Origin: Phyllobacterium bourgognense
GTDB lineage: Bacteria; Pseudomonadota; Alphaproteobacteria; Rhizobiales; Rhizobiaceae
DNA: 64,000 nucleotides
Assembly: GCF_003337575.1 (NCBI RefSeq)
Contig: NZ_QPJM01000002.1
Location: forward strand, 434,001 to 498,000
Direction: 5' to 3'
The notes below the pieces were generated by a model, which searched no databases, was not told where the DNA came from, and was given only the letters and a program-made list of their open reading frames with translations. A program made the translations under genes and the position numbers. Each line of letters begins with the position of its first letter. Within the stretch, counting starts at the first letter, position 1. Shown in pieces: positions 10,353 to 51,448 of the stretch.

Positions 10353-10384
10353 AGGCCGCTGGCACATCGTGTCGGCGGCCTTTT
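10353..10384 (+). terminator. Rho-independent terminator of the helicase gene
   Basis: A stem of about 13 pairs begins AGGCCGC (10353) and closes with GCGGCCT, followed immediately by TTTTC. Position 22 bp after the helicase stop and the U-tract support a terminator. Confidence 0.8.
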
Positions 10385-13773: not shown

Positions 13774-14211
13774 ATGAATTTGAAGAACATGGTGTGCGGC
13801 CTGTCATTGATAGTGACAGGCTTGTCGACTTCTGCTTGTCAAACAGATGACCTCAAGTTTACGAGGGCGGGATCGGCGATTTATACGATCCCAGCGAAGT
13901 CTGGCCACAAAACTGGTCTTTTAAGCAACTATATGGTCAATCCTGATTGTTCTGGTGGCAGAACTCCGGACTTCAAAGTTGTAACCGCGCCGGCAAATGG
14001 CACGATTGATCTTTGGCGAGGGTCTGTTTCTCCATCTTTCAGACAGGGCCATCCGCAACAGAAGTGTAATACACATAAAGTAGCGGCGGTTGGCGCGTTT
14101 TATACTTCCAGATCTGGTTTTGTCGGCACGGACAAGGTGGTCATTTCGAGCAAGGCTCCTGGCAGTGATGTTTACAGTTACATCACTGTTCACATCGACG
14201 TCACGAAATAG
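13774..14211 (+). CDS. Hypothetical secreted protein, possible lipoprotein
   Basis: A 145-residue protein with an N-terminal signal sequence, MNLKNMVCGLSLIVTGLSTS, and a cysteine at about residue 22 (LSTSAC), an imperfect lipobox. The mature part is rich in Ser, Thr and Gly, with a beta-like pattern and further cysteines (PDCSGG and KCNTH) that could form a disulfide in the periplasm. The ATG at 13774 has GGGGGT upstream. No family was recognised. Spacing of about 110 bp after the GNAT gene and its own leader suggest a separate transcript. Confidence 0.7.
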   Translation: MNLKNMVCGLSLIVTGLSTSACQTDDLKFTRAGSAIYTIPAKSGHKTGLLSNYMVNPDCSGGRTPDFKVVTAPANGTIDLWRGSVSPSFRQGHPQQKCNTHKVAAVGAFYTSRSGFVGTDKVVISSKAPGSDVYSYITVHIDVTK

Positions 14212-14247
14212 CGTTCTGCAAGAATCGGGTGGTTTCGTGCAAAATTT

Positions 14248-14280
14248 GGGTGTCTCCTTGCTTTGACAAAGGAGGCACCC
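14248..14280 (+). promoter_or_regulatory. Hairpin enclosing the ribosome binding site of the DUF1203 gene
   Basis: The arm GGGTGTCTCCTT (14248-14259) pairs over all 12 positions, with a single G-U wobble, with AAGGAGGCACCC (14269-14280), around a 9-base loop. The 3' arm contains the very strong ribosome binding sequence AAAGGAGG, and the ATG follows at 14282. No T-run follows. As written, folding of the mRNA would hide the ribosome binding site, so translation would need melting, a trans-acting factor or coupling. Confidence 0.6.
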
Positions 14281-14281
14281 G

Positions 14282-14755
14282 ATGAAACCGATCCGATTCA
14301 TAGCCATGACGACAACACTTGCCCGCCACTATCAAGCGGGCGGGGCGGATGCGAATGGTCAGGCACCCGAAATCTTTACTTCCGACGGGGATGGCGTTCC
14401 TTGCCGGCATTGTCTGCAGAACGTAAAGGCGGGCGACAAATATCTGGTGCTATCGCACCGGCCGTTCCCGGCACCGCAACCCTATGCTGAAACAGGGCCG
14501 ATCTTCCTGCACGCGGAGGCCTGTGAGCGTCACGAGGAAACGGCAGAACTACCGGAAATGTTTAGCGAGAATAGCGATTATATACTTCGTGGCTATTCCT
14601 GCCAAAACCGTATCGTTTACGGCACGGGCGGTGTGATCAAGACGGATGGCATCGCAAACCGGGCTGAGGAATTGCTTAAACGGGACGATATCGCTTATGT
14701 CCATATGCGGTCGGCAAGGAACAATTGCTTCCAGTGTCGCATTGAGCTTGCATGA
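14282..14755 (+). CDS. DUF1203 domain protein
   Basis: A 157-residue cytoplasmic protein of the DUF1203 family, function unknown. Family landmarks are PCRHCLQNVKAGDKYLVLSH with the CxxC pair near residues 41-44, YAETGPIFLHAEACERH near residues 70-87, and the C-terminal NNCFQCRIEL. The cysteines and histidine could bind a metal. The start has a strong AAAGGAGG ribosome binding site that lies inside a 12-bp hairpin. It is followed by a dispersed hairpin repeat and then by the convergent ald gene. Confidence 0.87.
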   Translation: MKPIRFIAMTTTLARHYQAGGADANGQAPEIFTSDGDGVPCRHCLQNVKAGDKYLVLSHRPFPAPQPYAETGPIFLHAEACERHEETAELPEMFSENSDYILRGYSCQNRIVYGTGGVIKTDGIANRAEELLKRDDIAYVHMRSARNNCFQCRIELA

Positions 14756-23781: not shown

Positions 23782-23840
23782 CGGAAAGACGATGCGCAGG
23801 CGAGTCGGGCGTCATCGAACTGTGGCGATTGAAAAAGCAA

Positions 23841-23863
23841 AAGGCCGGGAGCTACCCGACCTT
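23841..23863 (+). terminator. Weak stem-loop after the pilus operon
   Basis: AAGGCCGGG pairs with CCCGACCTT with one mismatch around a 5-base loop, 60 bp after the stop of the tip gene. It is followed by CCTAAGC, not by a T-run, so this is at best a weak terminator. The rest of 23782-24195 holds hairpin repeat copy 3 and no gene. Confidence 0.4.
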
Positions 23864-23970
23864 CCTAAGCTTACCTCGACACCAGTGCCAGTACATCCGT
23901 GGTCAAAAATGGAAATAAGCTATTCGCTATGTGTAATCATTAGCCTGCCATTGCGACGAATTGATGACGA

Positions 23971-36677: not shown

Positions 36678-36715
36678 TTTGCCGTCAGGTCAGACCTGGC
36701 GGCAAATTTGCTTTT
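36678..36715 (+). terminator. Rho-independent terminator of tolC
   Basis: TTTGCCGTCAGGT (36678-36690) pairs over 13 positions, with one wobble, with ACCTGGCGGCAAA (36694-36706) around the loop CAG, followed by TTTGCTTTT. Confidence 0.85.
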
Positions 36716-43198: not shown

Positions 43199-43993
43199 AT
43201 GCTCATCGCTGATCGTTTTTTTGGTCCAATTGTCGGGTTTGGTCTTTTGATGAGCGCCATGACCATGCCTTGTTTTGCGTTCGATACGCAAAATGAGGTG
43301 AAGGAAGACTCCAGCCCGTTCGCACTCTTCAAGTTTGGTTTCTCTGCATATAAAAACGGCCATAAGGACGAAGCGGTCAAGGCACTGCGGTTTGCCGCTG
43401 AAAAGGGACATCAGGGCGCCAACTGGAAGCTTGCGCGCATGTATGCTGAAGGCGACGGCGTCAAGGAAGACGATTACCAAGCCTACAAGATGTTCGAGCA
43501 GGTCGTCCATGAAGGCGCCGATCAGGGCACGGAGAACGAAAGCTACGTGGCCGATGCGCTGGTCGCGCTGGCCGGTTATGTCAAACGCGGCATCCCGAAT
43601 TCGCCCATCAACTCCAACCCAAGTGCGGCGCGTGATCTTTACCTGCAGGCAGCATCGAATTTCGGCGATTCCGACGCGCAATTCGAGCTCGGCAAGATGC
43701 TGATGAAAGGCGAGGGCGGACAACCCAGCCCCAACCAGGCTGCACGCTGGTTCCGTCTTTCGGCGCAAAAGGGCCATGCGGGTGCACAGGCCATGCTCGG
43801 CAATCTGCTGTTCCAGGCCGGCAAGACCGTGCGTGGGCTTGCCATGATGACCGCCGCTCTCGAGCATGCCAACAAGCAGGATCGCGCCTGGATCCGTGAT
43901 GTGCAGGAACAGGCGTTTTCCATATCCGACGAGGCCGACCGTCGCACCGCGATGGTGCTGGCCGAGGACATCATCAAGACCGGCGATTTCTGA
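43199..43993 (+). CDS. exoR: ExoR-like periplasmic Sel1-repeat regulator
   Basis: Secreted 264-residue protein of Sel1-type repeats matching ExoR of rhizobia, the periplasmic inhibitor of the ExoS-ChvI two-component system that controls succinoglycan, motility and biofilm. A signal peptide ends at PCFA-FDT near residue 28. The diagnostic SPFALFKFGFSAYKNGHKDEAV (about residues 39-60) is followed by repeats AAEKGHQGANWKLARMYAEGDGV, AASNFGDSDAQFELGKMLMKGEGG and SAQKGHAGAQAMLGNLLFQAG, then RGLAMMTAALEHANKQDRAWI. The order of these blocks agrees with ExoR of Sinorhizobium. AGGGTAAAGGAAG precedes the start. The partner genes exoS and chvI are not in the window. Confidence 0.9.
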   Translation: MLIADRFFGPIVGFGLLMSAMTMPCFAFDTQNEVKEDSSPFALFKFGFSAYKNGHKDEAVKALRFAAEKGHQGANWKLARMYAEGDGVKEDDYQAYKMFEQVVHEGADQGTENESYVADALVALAGYVKRGIPNSPINSNPSAARDLYLQAASNFGDSDAQFELGKMLMKGEGGQPSPNQAARWFRLSAQKGHAGAQAMLGNLLFQAGKTVRGLAMMTAALEHANKQDRAWIRDVQEQAFSISDEADRRTAMVLAEDIIKTGDF

Positions 43994-51398: not shown

Positions 51399-51418
51399 AA
51401 ACCTCGCGCATCTCATTG

Positions 51419-51448
51419 AAAGGGCTCCGCCATTGGCGGAGCCTTTTC
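51419..51448 (+). terminator. Rho-independent terminator after the SPOR gene
   Basis: GGCTCCGCC (51423-51431) pairs perfectly with GGCGGAGCC (51435-51443) around ATT, followed by TTTTC. Confidence 0.88.

Follow-up and report, generated by a model that had tools for sequence, protein, structure and literature searches.

A ribosome-binding-site hairpin before a DUF1203 gene of Phyllobacterium bourgognense shares an arm with a putative methylation-damage promoter and probably blocks stray transcripts

What is the role of a hairpin that buries the ribosome binding site (RBS) of a gene for a protein family of unknown function? The question is raised by a 64-kb stretch of the Phyllobacterium bourgognense genome (64,000 nucleotides, hereafter the window), in which a DUF1203 gene is preceded by such a structure. 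A preliminary description of this DNA proposed a possible two-state switch, controlled by temperature, an ion or a protein. Our analysis points elsewhere: half of the hairpin lies within a putative promoter of the methylation-damage response, so that it probably blocks stray transcripts rather than serving as a temperature or ion switch. The features that bear on this reading are as follows.

13774-14211, + strand: upstream co-directional open reading frame (ORF), a possible source of read-through, with a lipoprotein-like N-terminus by eye
14218-14232, + strand: Cada2-type adaptive-response box GCAAGAATCGGGTGG, from the conserved motif and the published GCAA/CGG motif
14218-14221 and 14226-14228, + strand: B-box GCAA and X-box CGG, parts of GCAAGAATCGGGTGG
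14248-14259 (14246-14259 as a 14-bp stem), + strand: left arm of the RBS hairpin, from sequence, fold and stem scan
14253-14258, + strand: -10 position, TCTCCT here; other genera most often have T, A and T at the first, second and sixth place
14265-14266, + strand: predicted transcription start, 7-8 nt past the -10 position, at an A preference in alignment columns idx 40-41
14269-14280, + strand: right arm of the RBS hairpin, from sequence, fold and stem scan
14271-14275, + strand: Shine-Dalgarno (SD) sequence GGAGG, from sequence
14282-14755, + strand: DUF1203 gene, 157 aa (PF06718, E = 1.5e-37)

The hairpin is real and conserved across many soil bacteria. Its arms, GGGTGTCTCCTT (14248-14259) and AAGGAGGCACCC (14269-14280), pair over 12 bp with a single G-T wobble, just as first described, and the stem can be extended to 14 bp (14246-14259 with 14269-14282), up to the A of the start codon. 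The placement of the SD in the right arm is likewise borne out, with GGAGG at 14271-14275 ahead of the ATG at 14282. Folding of 14240-14290 yields -23.8 kcal/mol, whereas shuffles average -9.6 kcal/mol (z = -5.3) and none of 200 is as stable. A scan for stems of at least 12 bp (loops of 3-12 nt, at most two G-T pairs) found six on the + strand of the window, where 12 shuffles average 1.0, and the RBS hairpin, at 14 bp, ties for the longest stem on that strand. The 33-nt hairpin sequence occurs once in the genome, even when up to three mismatches are allowed. No Rfam family reached its gathering score on the hairpin site; within 14150-14400 the search returned three chance-level matches (E = 0.13-4.3), none of them on the hairpin. 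Elsewhere, the window carries the alphaproteobacterial sRNA ar35 (RF02346, 54.5 bits) on the minus strand at 23834-23962, and on the + strand four other stems, each 13-14 bp without interruption and closed by a loop of 3-5 nt, at 51418-51448, 10353-10381, 36678-36706 and 43268-43298, which may be terminators if judged by stem alone, tails aside.

The two-state proposal drew on a second small stem, CTTTG-A-CAAAG, thought to compete with the hairpin. This stem is impossible as written, because its loop would be 1 nt; the stretch alone is worth -0.8 kcal/mol, a value equalled by 67 of 200 shuffles, and a switch built on so weak a rival was discarded. A longer stem, 14222-14299, takes in the ATG and the first codons (-44.2 kcal/mol for 14212-14300). 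We dropped its outer part as a feature, since synonymous recodings match it (equal stability in 107 of 1000) and pairing between box and coding sequence shows no covariation across the 72 leader clusters (z = +1.6); within the 20 Phyllobacterium leaders alone, the same pairing gives a weak z of -2.5.

Conservation of the pairing in relatives, the check that the preliminary description had called for, was assessed by covariation across DUF1203 leaders. The set comprised 172 leaders (132 of 132 plus 40 of 40), of which 145 were distinct; 138 of these carry the box described below at 50-75 nt and form 72 clusters at 66% identity, and the seven without a box at that distance were excluded from clusters and tests. 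The 40 genomes, hand-picked for spread over genera, contribute to the 145, and 36 of them have CGGGT within 150 nt. Columns are numbered on the 72 cluster representatives from the base ahead of CGGG (idx 0, 14225 here). In a swap test, the left part of each leader was paired either with its own RBS part or with that of another cluster. Matched arms averaged -13.5 kcal/mol versus -9.6 kcal/mol for permuted arms, a difference reached by none of 20000 permutations (z about -12, 72 clusters).

The position of this signal is informative. It climbs from idx 22 and peaks at idx 31-42, while 14 windows upstream of idx 22 show no covariation (z = -1.7 to +1.8). A left part limited to idx 22-39 (14247-14264) still gives z = -10.1 (71 clusters), and a left part taken from idx 40 onward, where the pieces are short, gives no signal (z = +0.2, 51 clusters). 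Reversing the left part, as a control for composition, leaves z = -2.5, and complementing it leaves z = -0.7. Pairing is stronger in the sense RNA (z = -12.5) than in the antisense strand (z = -10.1), as expected if G-U pairs count. In minimum-free-energy folds, at least three of the six SD bases are paired upstream in 57 of 72 real leaders compared with 50.1 (sd 2.6) in chimeras, indicating that selection acts mainly on the strength and register of pairing. Inner stem bases that belong to neither the SD nor the -10 consensus also pair (e.g., in leaders L073 and L237). These data indicate that the hairpin is under selection.

Covariation extends to the leaders of cada2, the gene for a regulator introduced below (15 clusters, z = -4.5, 0 of 5000 permutations), in a partial set in which 70 loci gave 33 leaders, 8 loci without a box and 29 that could not be parsed; seven of the 33, with a start more than 85 nt away, were left out. 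Leaders of AlkB-like genes gave z = -1.9 with 8 clusters, and z = -1.4 with 10 clusters once O6-methylguanine methyltransferase (MGMT) matches were added, too few for the swap test; most MGMT matches in this combined set seem non-orthologous (long open frames).

The box upstream of the hairpin connects the locus to a described regulon. In Caulobacter, the regulator Cada2, which has an MGMT domain and RLHD, is activated by methylation, and the promoters it targets contain GCAA, an AT-rich spacer and CGG, according to the text of Kamat et al. 2024 (PMC10957082). At 14218-14228, GCAA GAAT CGG shows the same B-box, AT-rich spacer and X-box; read literally, the spacer is 4 bp here versus 3 bp in the text of that paper. 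A Cada2 ortholog is encoded in this genome (G000:C4:274082-274978), with HTH_18, PF01035 (MGMT), RLHD and PCHR all present, so that the regulator with HTH_18, MGMT and RLHD, like the two promoter boxes, is common to this genome and the Caulobacter system as presented there (PMC10957082). The same box stands before the ortholog and before an O6-methylguanine methyltransferase gene and, with one mismatch, before a PF09859 gene, whose product is an AlkB-like oxygenase of damaged DNA; Caulobacter likewise has the box ahead of its own cada2 gene, of an AlkB-like oxygenase gene and of an MGMT gene, as reported in the same text. The main text of PMC10957082 contains neither "DUF" nor "ribosome"; its list of six genes sits in a figure and could include DUF1203.

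Genome-wide, a one-mismatch search for GAATCGGGTGG returned 72 sites, and the reversed pattern returned 26. Exact GAATCGGGTGG sites number six, and three of these are away from known repair genes: one near a transporter ORF, one within a long ORF and one (G000:C6:273367-273377, locus L116) 79 nt upstream of an ORF of 87 aa. The product of this last ORF presumably resembles a ParD-type antitoxin.

The box recurs across relatives. DUF1203 leaders have GCARGAAWCGGGTGG in common: a CGGGT box lies 50-75 nt upstream of the start codon in 138 of the 145 distinct leaders, which come mostly from one family, and GCARGAAW is conserved ahead of it. Among the other seven, two have the box at 83 and 91 nt, four have GCAN5CGG and one (L029) has neither. 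DUF1203 is present in 46 of 119 related genomes and, in a draw of 394 from the bacterial family, in 207, the present genome included; 80 named loci were retrieved. Class-wide, 30 of 289 genomes carry it, and all 14 control genomes lack it. The class-wide leader set began with 29 loci, two of which were dropped for an unresolvable start. In the 27 readable leaders, GCAN5CGG occurs within 140 nt upstream in 17, versus 116 of 1272 control windows, with one more leader added by a looser pattern and one by eye.

Searches outward from the pattern lead in part to the same genes. Ten other genomes gave 39 matches, against five for a control pattern, and the 30 matches viewed by eye fell before DUF1203 (six), cada2 (seven), AlkB-like oxygenase (three), MGMT (one) and a glutathione S-transferase-like ORF (one), with 12 elsewhere. 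The pattern lies upstream of 24 of 30 cada2 loci (inside coding sequence for L227), the other six having no box, and in 8 of 15 AlkB-like leaders. A Cada2 match at 1e-40 is present in every one of the 46 DUF1203-bearing genomes versus 57 of the 73 without DUF1203; one of the 46 matches (G038) is distant, at 35% identity. Two individual loci were also observed: in Mesorhizobium sp. AR07 (L197), the box stands 67 nt ahead of a 209-aa ORF that by eye resembles the glutathione S-transferase family, and in some long cada2 leaders of Phyllobacterium (L219, L221) the box is directly followed by a distant inverted repeat, CAGATCAGGC / GCCTGATCTG.

DUF1203 is thus a likely adaptive-response gene, and its regulator would be Cada2. 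One published observation counts against a simple picture: methyl methanesulfonate (MMS) does not induce ada genes in Brucella abortus, according to the excerpted text of PMC6813329. We had also considered the conserved box as an RNA element, an idea abandoned given its fixed spacing to a -10-like element and its place in a repair regulon.

That -10-like element emerges from the leader alignment. Past the box, column information stays at or below 0.24 bits until idx 28-33, where T28 (38/72 clusters), A29 (55/72) and T33 (42/72) appear at fixed spacing; a full TANNNT at idx 26-31 occurs in 13 of 72 clusters, compared with a mean of 4.0 and a maximum of 11 in shuffles. Further downstream, A is mildly favored at idx 40 and at idx 41 (27/72 each), and we accordingly predict a start site at about 14265, which falls inside the hairpin loop; the apical loop spans idx 40-41 in 30 of 57 DUF1203 clusters. 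Since the left arm occupies the -10/discriminator position, the gene's own mRNA is predicted to begin near 14265 and to lack that arm. The covarying left arm indeed lies mostly upstream of the predicted start: 192 of 269 strong SD partners are at idx 38 or below, with the other 77 beyond. The main weakness of this promoter placement is the absence of A29 (-11A) from all 20 Phyllobacterium leaders, in which TG is kept at idx 26-27.

We consider it more likely than not that DUF1203 is a member of the Cada2-type response and that its hairpin is a lock on transcript origin, which keeps the gene silent when there is no damage, and not an environmental sensor. Methylated Cada2 would bind 14218-14232 and direct transcription from about 14265, and the resulting mRNA would carry a leader of roughly 17 nt with its RBS open. 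Just upstream of this predicted start, the -10/discriminator is complementary to the RBS, and RNA entering from the upstream gene would hold both arms, form the hairpin and remain untranslated. The promoter DNA may in this way double as an anti-RBS arm, from which promoter-made mRNA would be freer.

In silico folding is consistent with such a lock. For RNAs containing both arms (five starts, 14150 to 14250), the unpaired probability of the SD is 0.00, which upholds the burial of the RBS originally described, versus 0.57 in RNA from 14265; in this window, therefore, the RBS is predicted to be hidden only in the longer RNA. The ATG remains mostly paired even in RNA from 14265 (0.18 unpaired). 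Averaged over the 72 clusters, the gain is modest, with the SD unpaired at 0.30 in longer RNA versus 0.43-0.47 for starts at idx 37-41.

A possible source of read-through is at hand in the upstream ORF, for which Pfam gave no match (13777-14208); a terminator scan of the + strand found no terminator-like site between it and the DUF1203 gene. Across 45 clusters, the upstream neighbor, guessed from ORFs, runs in the same direction as DUF1203 in 36. The lock idea predicts stronger hairpins beside co-directional neighbors, yet hairpin energy did not differ with the orientation of the upstream gene (36 versus 9 clusters by the same ORF-based guess, p = 0.49). Our literature search returned no match joining the alkylation adaptive response with an RBS hairpin and read-through.

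A comparable arrangement is familiar from mobile elements. In IS10 and IS50, transcripts from outside fold back so that an extra arm hides the RBS, whereas transcription from the promoter of the element itself begins within the repeat. Here too, the extra arm of an outside transcript would mask the RBS, but what it would silence is a chromosomal stress gene, and the arm itself is the -10/discriminator of a putative activator-dependent promoter. The gene encodes DUF1203 and not a transposase at the end of an element, and the locus would thus work like insertion-sequence fold-back without being a member of that class.

Several other explanations would also account for a conserved RBS hairpin. 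The native mRNA might hold the whole structure, with translation under the control of temperature, an ion, a protein or another RNA. Covariation in an RBS hairpin is a typical mark of a regulated leader, and the -11A is missing from its expected place in every Phyllobacterium leader, but we consider this reading unlikely: the left arm sits at the -10/discriminator of a fixed-spacing Cada2-type promoter with the predicted start beyond it, covariation is absent downstream of that start, the loop differs between relatives, the rival stem is negligible and no Rfam family reaches gathering score there. The same observations speak against the two states first proposed, whether driven by temperature, ion or protein. 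RNA thermometers such as ROSE and fourU do pair the RBS in a leader hairpin, as here. Their stems are of marginal stability close to the growth temperature, whereas 12-14 uninterrupted base pairs at -23.8 kcal/mol are too stable for a thermometer, the loop is unconserved and one arm is predicted to lie outside the native mRNA.

It is quite unlikely, in our estimation, that the pairing is a by-product, with a T/C-rich -10/discriminator happening to complement a purine-rich RBS. In favor of this idea, the SD is still paired in an average of 50.1 of the 72 swapped chimeras and the reversed left part retains some signal, but matched arms beat all 20000 permutations, bases outside both consensus elements take part in the stem, and other windows upstream of idx 22 behave as chance would have it. 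The inverted repeat might instead act as DNA, either as an operator or as a structure tuning open-complex formation. Its frequent position across the predicted start (30 of 57 clusters) would fit; the arm sequences vary between genera, unlike those of an operator, and the better pairing of sense over antisense RNA also weighs against this idea, which we regard as very unlikely. An intrinsic terminator of the upstream gene, suggested by a G+C-rich stem that begins 36 nt past the upstream stop codon, is scarcely credible and was rejected, since a T-run is absent, as the preliminary description had itself remarked, and the terminator scan made no call. The lock on transcript origin remains the reading that we carry forward.

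What the gene might do can be approached through its product. The AlphaFold2 model of the DUF1203 protein is confident (pLDDT 91), and its fold had no match among PDB structures at E = 0.001 (best VIA-align Z 3.8); its sequence had no PDB match up to E = 10. In a 42-row alignment, the invariant residues include C41, C44, C81 and C149, and together with H77 these might, as a guess, form a metal site. Residues 25-83 (window positions 14354-14530) show a C-x2-C ... H-x3-C spacing and are weakly similar to PARP zinc fingers (Z 2.1; Foldseek E no better than 1.3), a lead only. Among the literature records returned for DUF1203, the sole match concerns dermatophytes.

This reading would assign DUF1203, a family without a known function, to a defined stress regulon, where its role can be tested directly. 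It also suggests a compact way of silencing transcriptional noise, in which the same DNA would be the core promoter of a gene and, when copied into RNA from outside, a lock on translation. A broader proposal is possible, although we hold it to be somewhat less likely than not: Cada2-type genes may share this check on transcript origin, with the DNA from -10 to +1 selected as an anti-Shine-Dalgarno arm, and DUF1203 may be a recurrent target in Alphaproteobacteria whose invariant cysteines bind metal or accept methyl groups. If that check holds, only RNA made from the damage-activated promoter would be translated. If the arrangement is general, RBS hairpins that are read as switches from genome sequence alone may often be locks, and start sites would be needed before a leader is named a riboswitch or a thermometer.
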